Source: Halococcus sediminicola
GTDB lineage: Archaea; Halobacteriota; Halobacteria; Halobacteriales; Halococcaceae
DNA length: 64,000 nt
Reading direction: 5' to 3'
Assembly (NCBI RefSeq): GCF_000755245.1
Contig: NZ_BBMP01000027.1
Span: forward strand, 1 to 64,000
The notes beneath the pieces are model-generated. The model was not told where the DNA came from and did no database searches. It saw only the letters and a list, made by a program, of their open reading frames with translations. Each line of letters opens with the position of its first letter. Position 1 is the stretch's first letter. Shown piece by piece: positions 24,293 to 33,074 of this stretch. The position numbers and the translations under genes are program-made.

Positions 24293-24647
24293 GGCTACAA
24301 GCGTATCTCTTATCCCCCTCTCGCTAAACATGCTGCCTGAACTCGCCAGCGTATTACGTCGGGACTCCGGTAAGCAAGCGTTCGTACAACGAAGAGAGAC
24401 TGCACGATGTCTGGCGTTCGTCACCCGGTCTGTGAAGGAATTCTGTGGCGGTGCTGTCGCGGTCGGTGTCTCAAACCGCGCGTACTGGTCGGTAACAAGC
24501 CCTCTACAGTTGCTATAGGACCGGCATACGCCGGATCGTCCGTTGGGTCGCGGACTGATCGTTGCCCTGCACAGACAGCGCTATGGGATGGGTGGAAAAG
24601 GGAGACCCTCGGCGTTATCCGTTGGCATAATGAACGCCTGTATACTC

Positions 24648-25316
24648 ATGGCATCCATCGTTCGGGGAACGATTCCGGCCGAGGAGTTCGCGCTGTACGA
24701 TGCGTCGTCATCACTTGAGAACGTCGAATACGAGGTCGAACGAGTAGTCGAGAGCGCCGAAGGCGTGGTGATGCCGCTAGTGTGGATACGCGGATCTGAC
24801 ACTGAAGCTATCACGGACGCGTTCGCTACCGATTCGAGTGTGCGCGATCTCTCGTTACTCGCGGAGTTCGACGACGAATTACTCTACCGGATGGAGTGGA
24901 CTGAAGACGTCGCAGTCGTGATTCAGATGCTGACGAACTCCGAGGCGACGATCATGGATGCGTACGGCAAGGACGGCTGGTGGACGCTGCGGGTACTGTA
25001 TCCGATACGCGAGGCGGTCTCGAAGACCGTCGAATTCTGTCGGGAGGAGGGACTCACCTTCGACATCGAGATGATCCGCGAGATGGAAGGTGAACCGGCC
25101 GGCCGATACGGACTGACGGATAACCAATACGAGGCACTGCGGGTGGCGAGTGAGTTGGGATATTTCAAAGTCCCACGCGAAATCGATATGAACGAACTCG
25201 CTGAGGAACTCGATATCTCGCACCAAGCGCTCTCCGAGCGGCTACGGCGTGCATACGACACGCTGGTCGAAGACGCGGTTCTTGTCGGGTCTGACCGAGA
25301 CGACAGCGAGAGGTGA
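24648..25316 (+). CDS. HTH_10 (bacterio-opsin activator-type) regulator 1
   Basis: 222 residues. The N-terminal sensor-like half (MASIVRGTIPAEEFALYDAS, VEYEVERVVESAEGVVMPLVWI, YRMEWTEDVAVVIQML) is followed by the C-terminal HTH_10 domain: YGLTDNQYEALRVASELGYFKVPREIDMNELAEELDISHQALSERLRRAYDTLVEDAV. This is the standard arrangement of haloarchaeal bacterio-opsin-activator-like DNA-binding proteins. The start at 24648 fits family N-termini; 24630 is an alternative. Target unknown. Confidence 0.9.
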   Translation: MASIVRGTIPAEEFALYDASSSLENVEYEVERVVESAEGVVMPLVWIRGSDTEAITDAFATDSSVRDLSLLAEFDDELLYRMEWTEDVAVVIQMLTNSEATIMDAYGKDGWWTLRVLYPIREAVSKTVEFCREEGLTFDIEMIREMEGEPAGRYGLTDNQYEALRVASELGYFKVPREIDMNELAEELDISHQALSERLRRAYDTLVEDAVLVGSDRDDSER

Positions 25317-25340
25317 CAAGTCGTATCTTTCTCGTCGGTA

Positions 25341-25601
25341 TCACTCGAATTCGAAAGTAAGACTTCCCTGAATCTCGGCGAGTTGGAGGTCGTCGTCGCT
25401 TCGACTCAACTGATGTGCAGTTTCGATCTTATTGTGCTCCGGGTAGACGGTGACACGAACCGAATCGTTCGGTGGGATGTACGCGAGTCTACCGAGTTCG
25501 ATAGGGAATCCGAAGCGCTGCTGGAGCGCATCCCGCATGGCAGTAGTGCAGTCTTCGGTACCGGCTTTCGTATCGTGGATTGCAGCGGCCAGTTCACTCA
25601 T
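25341..25601 (-). CDS. Conserved haloarchaeal hypothetical protein
   Basis: 86 residues: MSELAAAIHDTKAGTEDCTTAMRDALQQRFGFPIELGRLAYIPPNDSVRVTVYP, then a beta-rich acidic end LQGSLTFEFE-like. Probably a small alpha/beta protein. Not recognised. Convergent with the HTH_10 gene just upstream. Confidence 0.55.
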   Translation of the reverse strand: MSELAAAIHDTKAGTEDCTTAMRDALQQRFGFPIELGRLAYIPPNDSVRVTVYPEHNKIETAHQLSRSDDDLQLAEIQGSLTFEFE

Positions 25602-25796
25602 GATTGTTCTCCGTTCGGGTGACCCTGTGAAGTGGGAAGAAGCTACCCTATGTCGTACGATTCCCCGCTACTGTGGAGGTTTCGGAGCAGCGGGAACTTG
25701 GTTCTGCATCTCTCTGGGCTGGCCCTTACTTACAGTGTCGGGTTCCATGCGGATAAACAGTAGTGCCTGCCAATGGCCGGGTATTCGATTGCGTCA

Positions 25797-26141
25797 ATGA
25801 GCATTGAGACAGTCGCCCCACATCGTGGGCTGCCGACACGAGCTACTACGTTTCGGGTCGGCGGGCAGATTGGTGAAAACGCTTTGTTGGAAGCACTGAA
25901 GGCGGCGGAGGAACGCCTACCGGCTAATATCTATTTCTTCTCCGAATTCAGTCCCGGAGATTTCGTGGGGTTCCTCGAAGTAGCCGCGTTCAAGCACGAG
26001 CACGAGAGCTTCAACGAGGTGTTCGTCAGCGTAGGTTTGCTCACCTCAGTGATTTCAGCTACGATTACCGACGGGCAAGAACGACACGCAGGACGCACAG
26101 TACGGCCTCTATACATCGACAATTCTTGCTCGCCTCGATGA
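25797..26141 (+). CDS. Possible hypothetical protein
   Basis: 114-codon frame from MSIETVAPHRGLPTRATTF. The first 70 residues look plausible (GQIGENALLEALKAAEERLPANIYFF, GDFVGFLEVAAFKHEHESFNEVF); the C-terminal part is less protein-like. No family recognised and no partner. Could be a remnant. Confidence 0.35.
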   Translation: MSIETVAPHRGLPTRATTFRVGGQIGENALLEALKAAEERLPANIYFFSEFSPGDFVGFLEVAAFKHEHESFNEVFVSVGLLTSVISATITDGQERHAGRTVRPLYIDNSCSPR

Positions 26142-26271
26142 GTCGAATATATGGTATTCAATTTTAGCCCAACAATCGAAATTTGCGAACATACAGGGCT
26201 GCAACAAGATATTTTGAAACGTCGGAGGTTTCGACCTAATCCCGACACGGATTTCTGTGGGCTGAGATGGT

Positions 26272-26279
26272 TAAATACC
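26272..26279 (+). promoter_or_regulatory. TATA-like box before uORF/HTH_10 regulator 2
   Basis: ttaaatac ends 28 nt before the ATG of the 16-residue uORF at 26308 but 75 nt before the regulator start at 26355. This spacing suggests a transcript that begins at the uORF. Pattern only. Confidence 0.45.
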
Positions 26280-26307
26280 CTAGAGATTTAACAGAGTAGT
26301 CCGAAAC

Positions 26308-26358
26308 ATGTGTGCGACAGGGTTGATCCACAAAACCACGATCAAGGTCAAACAATGA
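26308..26358 (+). CDS. Candidate 16-residue leader peptide overlapping HTH_10 regulator 2
   Basis: ATG at 26308 gives MCATGLIHKTTIKVKQ*. Its TGA (26356-26358) overlaps the ATG of the regulator in an ATGA quartet. It lies at the leaderless distance from the TATA-like box. It could provide translational coupling or control; expression is not shown. Confidence 0.4.
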   Translation: MCATGLIHKTTIKVKQ

Positions 26359-27023
26359 CTCTCATTGCCAGTTTCAGTGTTGACACCGGCGACATAGAAT
26401 TTGGGCAGGCGCTTGCGGGAACCGAAACCCGCATCGAACTCACCCAATTCGTGCCTGTTGGCGGTCAATTCATTCCCTACTTCTGGAAGGAACGCGGCGG
26501 TGATAGAGAGACATTTGAACAGAGTGTCCGCGAACATCCTGCCGTCGCTGATCTCGTATATCTCGATGGCCGGGTTGATGCTGCCCTCTATCGTATCGAC
26601 TGGACCGATGATGTCGATGGCTTTCTCAACGCGCTCTGCGATTTGGACATCATCGTTGAGGAGGCGAGTACCAACCACGGAGAGAAGTGGTCCTTCCGTC
26701 TCCGCGCATTCGATCAAGCCGGATTCACGGCATTCCAGCACGCCTGTTCCGACCACGGCATCAATCTTGATATGCGGCGTATGATACACAATCCTGATGC
26801 TGGTGGCGGCAGACACGACCGTGCGCTCGTTGGTGTCACTGAAAAACAACGCGAAGCCATCGAACTCGCACTCGAACAGGGGTATTTCGAGGTTCCCCGA
26901 CAAACCACGGCGACAGAACTCGCCGAGAAGATGGATATTAGCCGACAGGCGTTCTCACGACGGCTTCAGCGTGCTGAACAAACTGTTTTCACCAATCTTC
27001 TCACCGACTTCGGTGAGCAGTAA
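26355..27023 (+). CDS. HTH_10 (bacterio-opsin activator-type) regulator 2
   Basis: 222 residues. MTLIASFSVDTGDIEFGQALAGTETRIELTQFVPVGGQFIPYFW is a typical sensor start. The middle part includes YRIDWTDDVDGFLNALCDLDI and WSFRLRAFDQAGFTAFQHACSDHGI. The HTH_10 domain is GVTEKQREAIELALEQGYFEVPRQTTATELAEKMDISRQAFSRRLQRAEQTVFTNLL. The ATG at 26355 matches paralogues; the frame also extends back to a GTG at 26310. Likely DNA-binding regulator of unknown target. Confidence 0.92.
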   Translation: MTLIASFSVDTGDIEFGQALAGTETRIELTQFVPVGGQFIPYFWKERGGDRETFEQSVREHPAVADLVYLDGRVDAALYRIDWTDDVDGFLNALCDLDIIVEEASTNHGEKWSFRLRAFDQAGFTAFQHACSDHGINLDMRRMIHNPDAGGGRHDRALVGVTEKQREAIELALEQGYFEVPRQTTATELAEKMDISRQAFSRRLQRAEQTVFTNLLTDFGEQ

Positions 27024-27248
27024 TCGCCGCCAGTGAGCGGGATACTCGGACCTGATGCCCCTACTGGGTGCGACCGTGTGCGGACAGTAAGAGATCGAAG
27101 ATTAACTCGTCTTACTCTTCTCCCGAACAGGCATAAATGGGGTACATTAGAACGGGATTATGCGATCCCCTCCTCCTTTCGTGGACATAAATACTGCACA
27201 CGAGAAACGCGAGTTCTCATTCGATAGCCGATTTTGTACTGGAGTGCA

Positions 27249-27419
27249 ATGTCCGAATGTGGGAACTGTGGGGGGTTCGTCACAGAACAGTACGTTCGAG
27301 TATTCGCGCCGACAGGGATGGGGAAAGTGCGCGTCTGCCCGAACTGTGAGGACAAACTTCGTGACGGGGCGAAGGTTCGCGAGGCTCAAGCATCCCGCCA
27401 GACCAGTACCAATGCCTGA
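27249..27419 (+). CDS. Small zinc-finger protein (DUF7563-like)
   Basis: 56 residues from MSECGNCGGFVTEQYVRVFA. Two CxxC pairs (CGNC at residues 4-7, CPNC about 30) form a treble-clef/zinc-ribbon-like site; the tail is charged. Similar ~55-residue proteins are common next to HTH_10 regulators in haloarchaea. The stop overlaps the start of regulator 3 by 8 bp, implying co-translation. Confidence 0.8.
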   Translation: MSECGNCGGFVTEQYVRVFAPTGMGKVRVCPNCEDKLRDGAKVREAQASRQTSTNA

Positions 27420-28128
27420 ATCCATTCAGCCGGTGAGCACGCCGACGCCACAGGCTCCTTCAGCGAGCACCAACGCAAGCACTGCGCGGTTCGTACTTCC
27501 AGCCAAGGGCTTCGCGCTTGCGGACCTGTTTGAGCGTGTTCCCGACGCTTGCGTGAAATGTGAAGCTACGGTCGCCAACCCCGATGATCACGCACTGTTA
27601 GTGGTGCAAACCGATGAGGACGAGCGTGAGGTCGACGCCGCGCTGCGGTCGGAGTCGGACATCGCGACGGTTGAGTATTTCGGCGGTTGTGTCGATAGCT
27701 GGCGGTATCGGGTAACGTGGACGGGACACCCGCGCCAGCTCATCCAGCAGCTCGTTGCCGCGGATGTTTCGATTGTGACTGTGCAGGGACGGGGTGGTGA
27801 GTGGAGACTCCACCTGCTGGCTCCCGACCGGGAGGGGATTGCCAGAGCACACGATGTTATGGAAAATTTCGACTGTGGGGCTGATTGCCGGAGCATCTCA
27901 ACAGTCAATAGTGAGCGGTCGGACTGCTTGGAACTGACCACCGAGCAGCGTGAGGCACTTGTGGTAGCATTCAATCAGGGCTACTATAACGTCCCGCGAG
28001 ATGCTACAGCAAACGATATCGCGGACGAGCTTGGCATTTCTCATCAAGCACTCTCCGAACGCTTCCGGCGTGCGTACCATCAACTAGTCAAAACCGAGTT
28101 CGCCCTCGACGAGGAAAAACACCCGTAA
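27412..28128 (+). CDS. HTH_10 (bacterio-opsin activator-type) regulator 3
   Basis: 238 residues from MPESIQPVSTPTPQAPSAST. A low-complexity Ser/Pro/Thr start leads into FVLPAKGFALADLFERVPDACVKCEATVANPDDHALLVV, then the WRYRVTWTGHPRQLIQQLV and WRLHLLAPDREGIARAHDVM segments. The HTH_10 domain is LELTTEQREALVVAFNQGYYNVPRDATANDIADELGISHQALSERFRRAYHQLVKTEFA. The start is chosen because it overlaps the preceding zinc-finger gene; the frame is open further upstream but reads as the zinc-finger gene in another frame. Confidence 0.9.
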   Translation: MPESIQPVSTPTPQAPSASTNASTARFVLPAKGFALADLFERVPDACVKCEATVANPDDHALLVVQTDEDEREVDAALRSESDIATVEYFGGCVDSWRYRVTWTGHPRQLIQQLVAADVSIVTVQGRGGEWRLHLLAPDREGIARAHDVMENFDCGADCRSISTVNSERSDCLELTTEQREALVVAFNQGYYNVPRDATANDIADELGISHQALSERFRRAYHQLVKTEFALDEEKHP

Positions 28129-28145
28129 GGTACAGAATTGCAAGC

Positions 28146-28256
28146 ATGTCCAGACCAAAACCCGAGAACGTAGACGAGACGATCGAAGAATGTCGTAACT
28201 GCGGTGATTCAATGCTGACAGCATATCTCGAAGGTGGACTGTGTTCTCAGTGCTGA
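28146..28256 (+). CDS. Tiny zinc-finger protein (36 aa)
   Basis: MSRPKPENVDETIEECRNCG then DSMLTAYLEGGLCSQC*. Two CxxC pairs separated by 14 residues, with the last Cys being the C-terminal residue. Starts 17 bp after regulator 3 and could be co-transcribed. Confidence 0.6.
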   Translation: MSRPKPENVDETIEECRNCGDSMLTAYLEGGLCSQC

Positions 28257-28384
28257 GAGTAGGTGTGGATTTCTCGCTGATGTTTCTCGCCGGTGATCTC
28301 GCAGTAGTGTTCAACAAACCAGACTAATAGAGGGGTTGCATTCGCCGGGCAAAGTCAGAGTATTAGCAAGGTACACAGTCAAAT

Positions 28385-28534
28385 ATGGGTAGAAGAGGTC
28401 TCTATGAGTGTCTGAAGTGCGAGTACCGGGCTTATAGCACTAGAGACGAGGCTCGTATCGACAGTTGCCGGCAGTGCGGAGGCGGCATGGAAAATATAAG
28501 TGTCCCAGCAAAAAGCTGGCTATCGGGTGAGTAG
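28385..28534 (+). CDS. Rubrerythrin-like zinc-ribbon protein (49 aa)
   Basis: MGRRGLYECLKCEYRAYSTR then DEARIDSCRQCGGGMENISV and a short tail. The CxxC...CxxCGG-M-NISV arrangement is the one found in haloarchaeal 'rubrerythrin-like domain' mini-proteins. A single zinc (or iron) site is expected. Function unknown. Confidence 0.75.
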   Translation: MGRRGLYECLKCEYRAYSTRDEARIDSCRQCGGGMENISVPAKSWLSGE

Positions 28535-28543
28535 TTCAGGATC

Positions 28544-28882
28544 ATGGCCGACCCATTCAGTGGTCAGGCGTCATCCGAGGACCAGTTCAGTCTCAGTGTT
28601 GTAGAGTTCGTCTGCCCCCACTGCCAGAAGGCTCCTGATGCGATAGAGGAGACGGGCAGTACGATCACACTGCAACCGTGTGAACACGTCTTTCATCGCT
28701 CTGACCTCGCTACAGTTGTCGAGCACCTCTGCGCTCTCGATGAGCTGATTCAGCACCATGACGCAGCCACAACTCCCTTTGAACGCCACGGGATCCGAGA
28801 AGAGATACATACTCTCGGGGTGGAACTCGATACTGCTATCGAACAATGCACGGCACACATGGACGCTGCAGAGCCTGTGTAG
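28544..28882 (+). CDS. Haloarchaeal protein with N-terminal CxxC zinc site
   Basis: 112 residues. VEFVCPHCQKAPDAIEETGSTITLQPCEHVFH supplies C-x2-C and C-x-x-x-x-H ligands resembling a RING-like or zinc-ribbon half. The rest is helical (LCALDELIQHHDAATTPFERHGIREEIHTLGVELDTAIEQC). Nine bp after the previous small gene, same strand. Not recognised beyond this. Confidence 0.65.
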   Translation: MADPFSGQASSEDQFSLSVVEFVCPHCQKAPDAIEETGSTITLQPCEHVFHRSDLATVVEHLCALDELIQHHDAATTPFERHGIREEIHTLGVELDTAIEQCTAHMDAAEPV

Positions 28883-28926
28883 GGAGTGTACAGAAACCCA
28901 CAGATCTAAAAGCGTTGTTCAGACAG

Positions 28927-29061
28927 TCAGTGTTTCGCTGCCAATTCGCCGCCACATTCCGGACATGTCTCAGTCTCGTTTTGACTTTCGTACCCACAGT
29001 TCAGGCAGATGAATATCTCATCACTCTCATGTGGGGTGGGTTGATCTTCGTGGCGGGTCAC
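28927..29061 (-). CDS. Small zinc-ribbon protein (44 aa), GTG start
   Basis: VTRHEDQPTPHESDEIFICL then NCGYESQNETETCPECGGEL and AAKH*. Two CxxC pairs 12 residues apart make a zinc ribbon. The GTG at 29061 is the only plausible start, because stop codons precede it. Antisense to its neighbours. Confidence 0.65.
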   Translation of the reverse strand: MTRHEDQPTPHESDEIFICLNCGYESQNETETCPECGGELAAKH

Positions 29062-29232
29062 ACACTACTAGAGGTGCTCGAATTGATTAAGCATGCTGGC
29101 CGGCACGCGTTGCTGTTTGTCTGCTCGGGATCTCAACTGCGATAGGATTCGTCGTTAGTCAACTTCAGAGATTTCATTGCTGGTCATAGCAAGGTGGACG
29201 AATAAGTGGAGAGCAATCCATCATGTGTATAC

Positions 29233-29426
29233 ATGTCCGAATCAGAGATGATGCCGGAAGACTCGGGCGCACCATATCTCGCGTTTAGTGCTCTCGGTTC
29301 CGTCGCGCTCGCACTGTGTACGAGTACTATGTCCGAGACAACCAGCAGCGAGGGATGTTCATCGGCTTGTGGCCGCCGACAATGATCGGGTTCGCAATCT
29401 ATCTCAAGCAGCAGGAATCGAGTTAA
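29233..29426 (+). pseudogene. Small membrane protein, frameshifted
   Basis: MSESEMMPEDSGAPYLAFSA followed by LGSVALAL, then the frame is lost near 29318. A +1 frame continues YEYYVRDNQQRGMFIGLWPP and TMIGFAIYLKQQESS*. The joined 64-residue reading has two hydrophobic helices and looks like a common small haloarchaeal membrane protein. Confidence 0.65.
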
Positions 29427-29840
29427 CCGCGTCTAAGTAATAGCTGTCACCGAGCGGTTCAAGCGGGGATGGTGACCCGCCGAACCGCTGCCAGTAGTTG
29501 AATGGCTCCCGGTGGTGTAGCGAGGTGGTTCGTCTCTGGATCTATTCGACGCTTCGTGCCTGTCGGTGCCACCGACATCGATGTTATGAGCCGACAGGCC
29601 ATCCCTCTGTTTGCTATACTACAACACGGGCGTTGAGGCTGCACATGTAAGCTGCTTATGTTAGGTGGGGGCTGGTGAATCGTGACTGCACGATTGACCT
29701 CTACCGTGACGAGCGTGGCATGGTTCTGAGCTATGGAGTCGGAATTCGACGGTTGTTTCGCGTGAAGGCATTTGATTGTGCGGCTCCTTGATTCGCGCAC
29801 CTGAGAGGGAGAATCCCTACGAGTGACCGTTCTCTGCCGA
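29427..29840. other. Intergenic, no supported gene
   Basis: The only long frame here is an Arg-rich minus-strand ORF (29459-30328) that also runs antisense through two zinc-ribbon genes; I reject it. No repeats recognised. Confidence 0.5.
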
Positions 29841-29972
29841 ATGAGGCCCTTCCCGACTGTCCTGACTGTGCATCCGAGAATGTCGTTCCGACGCACCATG
29901 CAGACCGAGTACCGCTGTCTCGACTGTAACGCTGAGTTCACCGGGACGGGTGGCGGGTGGGCGTTCGAGTAA
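29841..29972 (+). pseudogene. Zinc-ribbon protein, frameshifted
   Basis: The ATG frame ends with MQTEYRCLDCNAEFTGTGGG, the second CxxC half of a zinc ribbon. The first half, PDCPDCASENVV, is encoded in another frame at ~29852-29887. One frameshift separates them. Same architecture as the four intact copies that follow. Confidence 0.65.
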
Positions 29973-30024
29973 CGGCCATGAGATTTACCCGCACACGCGA
30001 CGAACAGTAATGCCGGTGAAACCC

Positions 30025-30201
30025 ATGAGTGATAGACCCGACGCAACCGGCGATAGCCCCGAGGCCTACATGGACGAACACGCCATTCCATGTCCAACCT
30101 GCGAGTCACTGAACACCGTCCAAATCGCCGCACGCGGACTCCAATACCAGTGTCGGGATTGTAACAACGAATTCGCAAAAGAGGATAGGCCATTGGAATA
30201 A
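30025..30201 (+). CDS. Zinc-ribbon mini-protein A (58 aa)
   Basis: From MSDRPDATGDSPEAYMDEHA. CPTC (ESLNTVQIAARGLQYQ) CRDC NNEF: two CxxC knuckles 16 residues apart in a single zinc ribbon. Acidic N-terminus. First intact member of a tandem set; an in-frame ATG at 30010 is an alternative start. Confidence 0.8.
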   Translation: MSDRPDATGDSPEAYMDEHAIPCPTCESLNTVQIAARGLQYQCRDCNNEFAKEDRPLE

Positions 30202-30217
30202 CCCCTCCCCGAGAATC

Positions 30218-30394
30218 ATGAGTGACATCTCCAACACACCCGTAGACGAGAGAACAGTCACGTGTCCGACCTGCGGCTCGGAGAATCTCGTCCGAATTGG
30301 CCCACACGGACCTGTCTATCAGTGTCAAGACTGCACCGAGGAATTCAAACTGAATCGGTGGCCGGCAGACGCCGAGGCGGAGAAGTTCCGATGA
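30218..30394 (+). CDS. Zinc-ribbon mini-protein B (58 aa)
   Basis: MSDISNTPVDERTVTCPTCG, SENLVRIGPHGPVYQCQDCT, then EEFKLNRWPADAEAEKFR*. Same CxxC-x16-CxxC ribbon as A, with a charged tail. The stop overlaps the next start (ATGA, 30391-30394), so B and C are translationally coupled. Confidence 0.85.
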   Translation: MSDISNTPVDERTVTCPTCGSENLVRIGPHGPVYQCQDCTEEFKLNRWPADAEAEKFR

Positions 30395-30555
30395 GCGACC
30401 CGCCGAGCGACGTCGTGGATGAGGACAACGAAATGGTCTGTCCTTTCTGTGGGTCTATAGATACCGAAATCGGGGCAGGCGACGGCCTCGATTATCGGTG
30501 TCACGATTGTGACGCAACGTTCGACCCGAGCAGCGGCCCTGTCAACGTCGAGTGA
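30391..30555 (+). CDS. Zinc-ribbon mini-protein C (54 aa)
   Basis: MSDPPSDVVDEDNEMVCPFC, GSIDTEIGAGDGLDYRCHDC, DATFDPSSGPVNVE*. Paralogue of A, B and D with the same ribbon spacing and an acidic start. Coupled to B by a 4-bp overlap. Confidence 0.85.
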   Translation: MSDPPSDVVDEDNEMVCPFCGSIDTEIGAGDGLDYRCHDCDATFDPSSGPVNVE

Positions 30556-31001
30556 CTGTCCTCTACTCGACGCTCTCGATTACCGCCGGCGGTCCCCGCT
30601 GAGAGAGGGATTCCACTTGGACGCGATTTCCTCAATAATCACCACTGGAGATTCGGTGGATCAGACGGTCGTGTGCCGCCTCAAGTCAATAGATGTTGAG
30701 TAAAGCGGATCCAAGTAGATATGAGTGGGCCGGACGCAAAATAGAGTGTGAGCGCCACGAAAGCACCCGGCTCACCGGTTCCGTTCAAGGTAGCAGTATG
30801 TAATGATCTGTTAGAATGCTCAGGGTGCAACTACCACTAAAGGGCGACGATTGGCGAAGAGAATGACGGAATATAGAGTGGTGTCTGGCGTAATCGAGAG
30901 CCGGCCGGTGTACACTGAGCGAAAGCAGCGGAAGCCGCGGAGTGTCTGAGGAGCCAAAAAGCCGATAATGGTTGCCCCCTATCCATCTGATAGGCAAAAA
31001 C
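30556..31001. other. Intergenic between zinc-ribbon genes, no supported gene
   Basis: Open frames here are short and without haloarchaeal composition (for example 30785-31069 minus). It separates paralogue C from D by ~450 bp and may hold a decayed copy, but I could not show one. Confidence 0.4.
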
Positions 31002-31160
31002 ATGAGTGATACTACCGTTGGCGAGGACCCATCCGACATGGTCTGTCCATCCTGTGACGCAGAGAACATCGAACAGATCCAGTCAACACAACCTGTCTAC
31101 AGGTGCCGTGCATGCGGGGCGGAATTCCATCCGGATGGCGAACTGGTCGACGAGGAGTGA
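31002..31160 (+). CDS. Zinc-ribbon mini-protein D (52 aa)
   Basis: MSDTTVGEDPSDMVCPSCDA, ENIEQIQSTQPVYRCRACGA, EFHPDGELVDEE*. Same CxxC-x15-CxxC ribbon and MSD- start as A-C. Start chosen at MSDTT, ten codons inside the open frame, to match the paralogues. Confidence 0.82.
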   Translation: MSDTTVGEDPSDMVCPSCDAENIEQIQSTQPVYRCRACGAEFHPDGELVDEE

Positions 31161-31346: not shown

Positions 31347-32135
31347 TTAGAACATGCCTGCGATGAACCCAATCCCCATGCCGACGAGGATCACTGCCGT
31401 GATCGTCGGCAGATATTCGGTATAGCGTTCGAGTCGGTCTTCATAGCGCTCGTAACCGGCCACGAGTACGAGCGTGATCCCGACGAGTGAGATGATGACG
31501 GAGGTCGCGTAGAGGAGCATGAGTTCGAGGCAGTACGTCGACCCCGTACAAATCGCGATGATGTCGAATTCCTCGTTGTGAGCAAATCCGAGTGCGAATG
31601 CAAGCGCAGCCATTCCGTACAGCCCTCGATCCGTCTCCTCGGGAGGGCTGTGCGAGTGTGAATGGTCGGGATCACCTACGAACGGAAGCGCCTGACGGAG
31701 CCGAGCGAACTTGCCTGTGCTTTCGTCGGTGGTGTGTGCATGGCTGTGGTCGTGAGAACGGCCGTGATTGTGGTCGTCTTGGTACTGAATATCCTCGTCG
31801 GGATCGTGGTCGTGTTCCTCGGCGCTGTGTTCGTGGCCGTTGAAATACTGCCAGATTCCGAGCGCGATCAGCATCGTGCCTGCTATGTAGTGCATCCAGC
31901 TGATCTGCGTCAGATCGAAATACGAGAGCGCAAAGAAGTAGACAAGCACCATCGCGATGCTGCTGATCAGGTGACCGACACCGAGGATGAGACTCGATGC
32001 GGCACCGTAAAACCACTTGTTCGGCTTGTCGAGTGCGTAACTCGCGGCGATTGCCCAGCCGTGACCCGGTGCAAGTCCGTGAACGAGACCGAGAGCGCTT
32101 GCGCCGAGTGCAAGCCCTACTACCCCGTTTGCCAT
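31347..32135 (-). CDS. NicO/RcnA-like metal transporter with His-rich loop
   Basis: 262 residues, six hydrophobic segments. The first has ALGLVHGLAPGHGWAIAASYAL, close to the HGLEPGHG signature of NicO/RcnA nickel-cobalt exporters. Between segments 3 and 4 lies a loop of ~60 residues full of His and Asp (NGHEHSAEEHDHDPDEDIQ, HNHGRSHDHSHAH, DPDHSHSHS), typical metal-buffering sequence. The second half (FALGFAHNEEFDIIAICTG) contains further conserved polar residues. Probably exports or imports Ni/Co. Direction and metal cannot be read from sequence. A ~110-bp palindromic repeat sits in the upstream region. Confidence 0.85.
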   Translation of the reverse strand: MANGVVGLALGASALGLVHGLAPGHGWAIAASYALDKPNKWFYGAASSLILGVGHLISSIAMVLVYFFALSYFDLTQISWMHYIAGTMLIALGIWQYFNGHEHSAEEHDHDPDEDIQYQDDHNHGRSHDHSHAHTTDESTGKFARLRQALPFVGDPDHSHSHSPPEETDRGLYGMAALAFALGFAHNEEFDIIAICTGSTYCLELMLLYATSVIISLVGITLVLVAGYERYEDRLERYTEYLPTITAVILVGMGIGFIAGMF

Positions 32136-32449: not shown

Positions 32450-33074
32450 ATGCCCCACATCCGATTGAAGTTCAAACTCCCGGGGGGGCGTGTTCGAGTT
32501 TTCAACCGATCATCCTGACCAGGAGTTCCGGATACTCGCTGCCTTCCCCATGGATGATGAACTCTTCGTCGCGTTTGAGGCACCAACGGAGAATCAGCAG
32601 GCCGTCCTTCGCTATTTCGATGAAGCTCCGCTCACCTATGACGTGCTCCACACCGGCGAACAGTCCGTTCTGCTCCAGTATGAGATGCCGGTCATTCCAC
32701 CACCAATTCACGCAGTCTTGGCCTCCGGAAACCTCGTGCAATTTCCGCTCACCCTCCGAGATGGATGGATAACGTTTGACCTGACGACCTCACACGAGCG
32801 GCTATCGAGGCTCAAAGCCGAGTTCGAGGACGCTGGCTTCACGTATGAGGTCGTCTCAGTCACACAATCGACCCAGCCGACCGATCTATTGACCGACCGC
32901 CAACGCCGATTCATGATCGAAGCCCTCCAGCGCGGCTACTACGACAGCCCACGCGAGTGTTCGCTCACCGATCTTGCGGCCGGACTTGATGTTGGCAAAT
33001 CGACGGTGAGTAGGGTGCTCCACAACGCCGAAGAGAAGATCATCAAGAAGTTCTTCGCAGAGCCAATCGAGTAG
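32450..33074 (+). pseudogene. HTH_10 (bacterio-opsin activator-type) regulator 4, frameshift at G7
   Basis: The natural start MPHIRLKFKLPGG (ATG 32450) is separated from the rest by an extra G in a run of seven (about 32482-32488). Removing one G gives PGGVFEFSTDHPDQEFRILAAFPMDDELFVAFE in one frame to the end. The C-terminal HTH_10 domain is intact: LLTDRQRRFMIEALQRGYYDSPRECSLTDLAAGLDVGKSTVSRVLHNAEEKIIKKFF. It may be functional if the G-run is a read error, or if translation starts internally (~32490). Confidence 0.88.

Follow-up and report, generated by a model that had tools for sequence, protein, structure and literature searches.

A predicted HTH_10/DUF7563 regulatory module of Halococcus and a neighbouring tandem expansion of zinc-ribbon micro-proteins

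The window analyzed here, a stretch of 64,000 nucleotides of Halococcus sediminicola DNA, belongs to contig C27 (95.8 kb), one of 27 contigs in a 3.76 Mb assembly. Within 4 kb, the window encodes eight intact mini-proteins with two CxxC motifs and one decayed copy (Table 1). All of the open reading frames (ORFs) listed in an earlier note on this DNA are present; its count of ten ribbons holds for the eight intact proteins but includes the frameshift-decayed copy and the 28544 protein, which has another Cys/His pattern. The spacer between the CxxC motifs is 22 residues in the 27249 protein, 13 in 28146, 15 in 28385 and 10 in 28927, a range of 10-22 in the cluster rather than the 12-17 claimed, while the common spacing noted for the four MSD- paralogues is borne out (16 residues in each). 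All eight intact ribbons fall within the definition of C(P)XCG micro-proteins (<70 aa, two C(P)XCG-like motifs), and the 28544 protein does not. As judged by profiles, the cluster ribbons belong to several unrelated families; only 30218 is among the listed matches to the Brz zinc ribbon (PF23454), at 14.6 bits versus a gathering score of 27.9. With one filter for both (<80 aa), ribbons number 39 in the 1.32 Mb of genome sampled by stretches (~3 per 100 kb) versus six in the 4 kb cluster, a ~50-fold density based on counts that are not independent, since tandem duplication accounts for four of the six. Coding of the ribbon ORFs is backed by an excess of synonymous change; the four tandem paralogues of the window are hard to judge among themselves due to synonymous saturation.

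Table 1. Features of the ribbon cluster and its adjoining HTH_10 genes in the window.
Feature	Coordinates	Strand	Evidence
HTH_10-A, regulator with BAT and HTH_10 domains, leads the module	26355..27023	+	PF04967 67.6 bits, PF15915 30.0 bits
DUF7563 zinc ribbon, 56 aa, pI 8.5	27249..27419	+	PF24444 53.2 bits, cut-off 27
ATGCCTGA, overlap of DUF7563 stop with HTH_10-B start, 8 bases	27412..27419	+	sequence
HTH_10-B, BAT + HTH_10, Cys-x3-Cys before HTH	27412..28128	+	PF04967 64.9 bits, PF15915 26.7 bits
Second module ribbon, 36 aa, acidic (pI 4.3), 18 bp past HTH_10-B	28146..28256	+	homologues beside HTH_10
DUF7129 rubrerythrin-like ribbon, 49 aa, 257 bp past HTH_10-B	28385..28534	+	PF23455 38.8 bits, cut-off 30
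Orphan protein, 112 aa, one CxxC (CPHC...CxHxxxH)	28544..28882	+	no Pfam match at 0.001
DUF7129-like ribbon, 44 aa, GTG start	28927..29061	-	PF23455 25.1 bits, short of the cut-off of 30
Fifth tandem-family copy, decayed, frameshifted	29822..29972	+	motif halves split between two frames
Tandem ribbon 1, 58 aa	30025..30201	+	family profile
Tandem ribbon 2, 58 aa	30218..30394	+	family profile; modelled three-strand ribbon, modest confidence
Tandem ribbon 3, 54 aa, ATGA-coupled to ribbon 2	30391..30555	+	family profile
Tandem ribbon 4, 52 aa	31002..31160	+	family profile

Three intact HTH_10 genes of the window (24630-28128) match both PF04967 and PF15915, and a further gene at 32490 has the HTH_10 domain only, without a BAT match. 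In the putative module, DUF7563 is preceded by HTH_10-A and overlaps HTH_10-B. This 8-base overlap went unnoticed in the earlier note, which had rightly recorded that two ribbons are ATGA-coupled; within the tandem set, 30218 and 30391 are the sole such pair.

The HTH_10-A/DUF7563/HTH_10-B order recurs in paralogous copies of the same genome (C24:8.7-10.3 kb, C24:96.1-97.7 kb and C14). A C12 locus has HTH_10-A and DUF7563 but is missing HTH_10-B, and a C23 locus has a decayed DUF7563 with HTH_10-B. Coupled DUF7563/HTH_10-B pairs are found elsewhere in genomes G003 (three loci), G008 (Halococcus thailandensis JCM 13552; two loci), G002 and G007, bringing the pair to five Halococcus species with that of the window. 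At 12 of the 12 loci with HTH_10-B, its start codon overlaps the DUF7563 stop codon, in the form of either ATGA or an 8-base ATGnnTGA/GTGnnTGA. A same-strand HTH_10-A was found upstream at seven of the 12, whereas several coupled loci lack it or gave no match. Overall, paralogues of HTH_10-A precede DUF7563 at four loci of the window's genome besides that of the window and at four loci in other species. Partial modules include (i) an HTH_10-B fragment with LDCGAKC and a 28146-type ribbon in G005, and (ii) HTH_10-A with DUF7563 in G006. DUF7563 is directly upstream of all HTH_10-B relatives that score above ~245 bits, while the relatives examined below ~205 bits are without it.

The ribbon at 28146 is, by its position, a second member of the module that is less constant than DUF7563. 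The 28146-type ribbon is spaced 18 bp from HTH_10-B in both the window and G003, overlaps by ATGA at C24:97728 and lies directly 3' of HTH_10 at G005:C3 and C23. Weaker homologues mostly have no HTH_10 gene nearby, and the 28146 ribbon matched no family profile.

The DUF7563 gene is under purifying selection as estimated from seven coupled copies, with a pairwise dN/dS of 0.05-0.28 where dS is finite and a pooled pN/pS of 0.30; HTH_10-B pairs have a dN/dS of 0.19-0.44. The first position of the HTH_10-B Cys-x3-Cys is a cysteine in 12 of 12 coupled proteins and in no other HTH_10 protein examined, as seen when HTH_10 proteins of the window's genome and of relatives were aligned to a profile, with some proteins entered twice under different locus names. 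The second position is a cysteine in eight distinct coupled proteins and a leucine in the other four, and C-x-C replaces Cys-x3-Cys in three coupled proteins. As the coupled HTH_10-B proteins form one clade, the shared cysteine may reflect a single evolutionary event and not repeated support. The Cys pair could simply mark the clade. The cysteines of DUF7563 are retained in most coupled copies; by contrast, the copy at G008:C164 has lost two cysteines, yet its partner HTH_10-B retains the Cys pair. Resolution is poor in the gene tree of DUF7563, and a single origin of the coupling is not seen in it. The DUF7563 fold model is of modest confidence (pLDDT 72); its top hit in Foldseek is RNA polymerase-bound TraR, at an E-value of 4.4 that is not significant.

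DUF7563 is found in 59 of the 59 haloarchaeal genomes searched, and no mention of it was found in the literature searched. A general linkage of DUF7563 to HTH_10 is rejected, as no HTH_10 gene lies within 1.5 kb at any of the 30 best DUF7563 loci, nor so close to any closer-subfamily locus from other genera. DUF7563 usually neighbours a UvrD-type helicase (13 of 22 loci) or, judged by eye, an ArsA-like ATPase (five of 22). In one other genus of the Halococcaceae, DUF7563 lies a few bases before a TFIIB-family gene, after which comes an HTH_10 gene ~1.5 kb away. On named plasmids of other genera, its neighbours are varied (RNase Z, macro domain, TFB) and HTH_10 is absent from the annotation. 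Since DUF7563 elsewhere is nearly always without HTH_10, and HTH_10-B relatives outside of the coupled group are without DUF7563, the pairing is best read as a Halococcus innovation in which a general small ribbon appears to have been captured. The coupled loci, as paralogues found only in Halococcus, are not independent evidence.

Profile searches place the four MSD- ribbons in a mainly Halococcus family of C(P)XCG micro-proteins, of which they are a local expansion; the family has no conserved link to HTH_10. A profile built from the four members identifies tandem pairs at C4 and C9 of the window's genome and further members at C3 and C4:135 kb; beyond this genome, confident matches are restricted to the same genus, and no match is found on plasmids or phages. 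The fifth copy (29841) is broken as the earlier note had described, with a frameshift placing CPDCASENVVPTHH in one frame and QTEYRCLDCNAEF in another. Several groups of relatives have a pooled pN/pS of 0.12-0.25, a strong synonymous excess that marks this as a real family. For the four paralogues in the window, the pooled pN/pS is 0.57, with synonymous sites near saturation, and divergence is too great for a firm estimate. The PaaD ribbon profile (PF23451, cut-off 27) scores 28.1 bits for 30218, 27.8 for 30391 and 26.9 for 30025, and NF041869 scores at most 25.7 versus a cut-off of 100; thus, the tandem ribbons are not PaaE. Structural matches of the modelled fold (pLDDT 70) are to the eL43/L37ae and TFS4 ribbons, at E-values of 0.03-0.16 that are not significant. 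Matches to C2H2 finger-array profiles are read as driven by cysteines and not by homology. The MSD- ribbons are probably metal-binding adaptors with partners other than HTH_10.

A ribbon working with an HTH_10 protein has been described in Halobacterium salinarum, where the CPxCG micro-protein Brz and the HTH_10 protein Bat are both required for bop transcription, as are the motif Cys and His of Brz; the authors also noted that boa2 and boa4, which encode Bat homologues, have zinc-finger genes next to them, and suggested cooperation at the protein level (PMC2253796). Brb, a basic protein, was added later, and bp4 and OE2447F were found to be co-transcribed with boa4 (PMC3184054). Haloferax volcanii has 49 C(P)XCG micro-proteins; nine of the 14 purified bind zinc, and several bind a non-zinc metal that is likely Co or Ni (PMC11241148). 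These studies were overlooked when the system was termed not well described: zinc-finger partners for Bat-type HTH_10 proteins are a published idea (Brz/Bat, OE2447F/boa4, OE3131F/boa2). The joint need of Brz and Bat for bop, together with the linkage of OE2447F to boa4 and of OE3131F to boa2, provides a precedent for the module, although the Brz-Bat interaction is itself only proposed.

The window locus resembles Brz/Bat in that a zinc-finger micro-protein gene adjoins, or is co-transcribed with, a Bat-type HTH_10 gene. Boa2 and Boa4 do not have the PAS domain of Bat, and the HTH_10 proteins of the window likewise have no PAS match. By contrast with Brz/Bat, the ribbon of the window is a member of DUF7563 (PF24444) and not of the Brz family, its gene is flanked by HTH_10 genes on both sides and overlaps the downstream one, and the window-type HTH_10-B carries a Cys pair. 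A Brb-like basic gene would have no room between HTH_10-A and DUF7563 at both C24 loci (gaps of ~80 bp), and the ribbon that follows HTH_10-B is acidic. Members of DUF7563 elsewhere adjoin UvrD-helicase, ArsA-like or TFB genes rather than HTH_10. Similarly to the Haloferax C(P)XCG proteins, the ribbons of the window are <70 aa, single-domain and have two CxxC motifs; the tandem family differs from these in being confidently detected only in Halococcus and in forming a local tandem set. Thus, what appears new here is a different ribbon family tightly coupled in a Brz/Bat-like arrangement, with a function that is predicted.

Zinc-ribbon micro-proteins and HTH_10 regulators each number in the dozens in haloarchaea and, to our knowledge, almost none of them has a known partner or target. 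The locus is explained best, with about even confidence, by two unrelated neighbours: a conserved Halococcus HTH_10/DUF7563 module with a predicted role in regulation, and a tandem ribbon expansion that is independent of HTH_10. In the module, DUF7563 is most likely a protein partner of HTH_10-B that would be co-produced by coupled translation, such that the two are made in matched amounts. DUF7563 may dock on HTH_10-B as a Brz-like co-regulator, perhaps at the BAT-domain segment with the Cys pair, and HTH_10-A and HTH_10-B may act on common promoters. The overlap kept at 12 loci singles out one specific and testable ribbon/HTH_10 pair; if the partnership is true, Brz/Bat would be one case of a recurring partnership built from different ribbon families.

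The main rival to the partner model is a neutral, inherited linkage in which DUF7563 was inserted before an HTH_10 gene in a Halococcus ancestor and the operon was copied around plasmid-like regions with no functional interaction. This reading has a real though minor chance of being correct, given that the coupling is found in one clade, that cassette copies have decayed in places and that DUF7563 elsewhere precedes TFB, UvrD-helicase and ArsA-like genes; the persistence of the pair and its overlap in copies where HTH_10-B is only 50-55% identical, with DUF7563 still under selection, argues against it. An extension of the partner model, in which DUF7563 and the Cys pair of HTH_10-B would form a shared metal/thiol site and thereby a split metal- or redox-sensing transcription factor restricted to Halococcus, is rather unlikely.

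The earlier note had proposed that all ten ribbons, the tandem set included, could be co-regulators or metal-sensing adaptors of HTH_10 factors. Within Halococcus the link is conserved for DUF7563 and, less so, for the 28146 ribbon, but does not extend to the tandem paralogues, which are scattered without HTH_10 neighbours, the outcome that the note itself had listed as refuting: no HTH_10 gene lies within 5 kb at any of the 17 other family loci (seven of which have a flank of <5 kb to one or both sides), the nearest being at 6.7 kb. In the sampled genome outside of the window, ribbons <80 aa show no significant excess around HTH_10 genes (p = 0.11, 0.22 and 0.29 for distances of 2, 3 and 5 kb, respectively). 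With these results, and with ribbons that come from several families, a common role with HTH_10 is doubtful at best, despite the adjacency in the window and the Brz/Bat precedent. Equally doubtful is a function of the tandem ribbons as metal buffers or chaperones for a His-rich, nickel-transporter-like protein (31347-32135), as suggested by its adjoining ribbon 4, a NicO match of 25.9 bits that is just under the cut-off of 27.7 and the likely Co or Ni bound by several Haloferax C(P)XCG proteins (PMC11241148); the gene is convergent with the tandem ribbons and not in one operon with them, and no such transporter is recognized among the genes, most of them unannotated, around the other family loci. 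Least probable is that the DUF7563 ORF is mainly a leader that sets HTH_10-B translation with an incidental peptide, as the start/stop overlap at every locus might suggest, since the peptide itself is conserved: its gene shows a synonymous excess, and most copies keep the cysteines.

The remaining proteins of the cluster include the 28544 product, which is classed as an orphan after a search of 40 other genomes with no homologue found. The ribbons at 28385 and 28927 both score under the NCBIfam rubrerythrin-like cut-off of 32. The 28927 ribbon has a close copy on C22 near 449.6 kb, and a DUF7129-like ORF lies 253 bp past HTH_10-B in H. thailandensis versus 257 bp in the window.

In another Halococcaceae genus (L235, contig G009:C42), DUF7563 is followed within a few bases by the start of a TFIIB-family gene, whose product has an unusual, highly charged N-terminus, and then by an HTH_10 gene; this locus is one more neighbourhood pairing DUF7563 with transcription factor genes. 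Among 22 haloarchaeal loci (L193-L214), DUF7563 adjoins a UvrD-type helicase at 13 and an ArsA-like ATPase (judged by eye) at five; DUF7563 may have a part in nucleic-acid transactions.

The congener G006 holds a further ribbon cluster (L246, contig G006:C44), in which about 1.2 kb carries three small ORFs with two CxxC each, two of them 28146-type; no HTH_10 gene lies within the 6 kb examined. A unit duplicated on contigs C4 and C9 of the window's own genome consists of a DUF7129-like ribbon and, after it, two ribbons of the tandem family; on C9, one of the copies is missing a Cys (C to Y). The island in the window contains dead copies too, as seen from a decayed HTH_10 fragment. A NicO-like gene is convergent with the last tandem ribbon gene.

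Coordinates of the features
Feature	Locus	Position	Strand	Remark
DUF7563 / TFIIB-family neighbourhood	L235	3300-4349		
Three two-CxxC ORFs	L246	2457-3623		
DUF7129-like plus two tandem-family ribbons	L001; L003	14077-14703; 11025-11720		Duplicated unit, C4 and C9
HTH_10 fragment, decayed	Window	25875-26015	-	Internal stop codon
His-rich protein, NicO nickel/cobalt transporter-like	Window	31347-32135	-	Pfam match slightly under cut-off
Adapter-like sequence	L095; L004	107-310; 9843-10061		Contig ends

Translations at contig ends, such as VSYTHLRAHETEADLVCRLLLEKK, resemble Illumina adapter sequence read through, and are probably assembly contamination.
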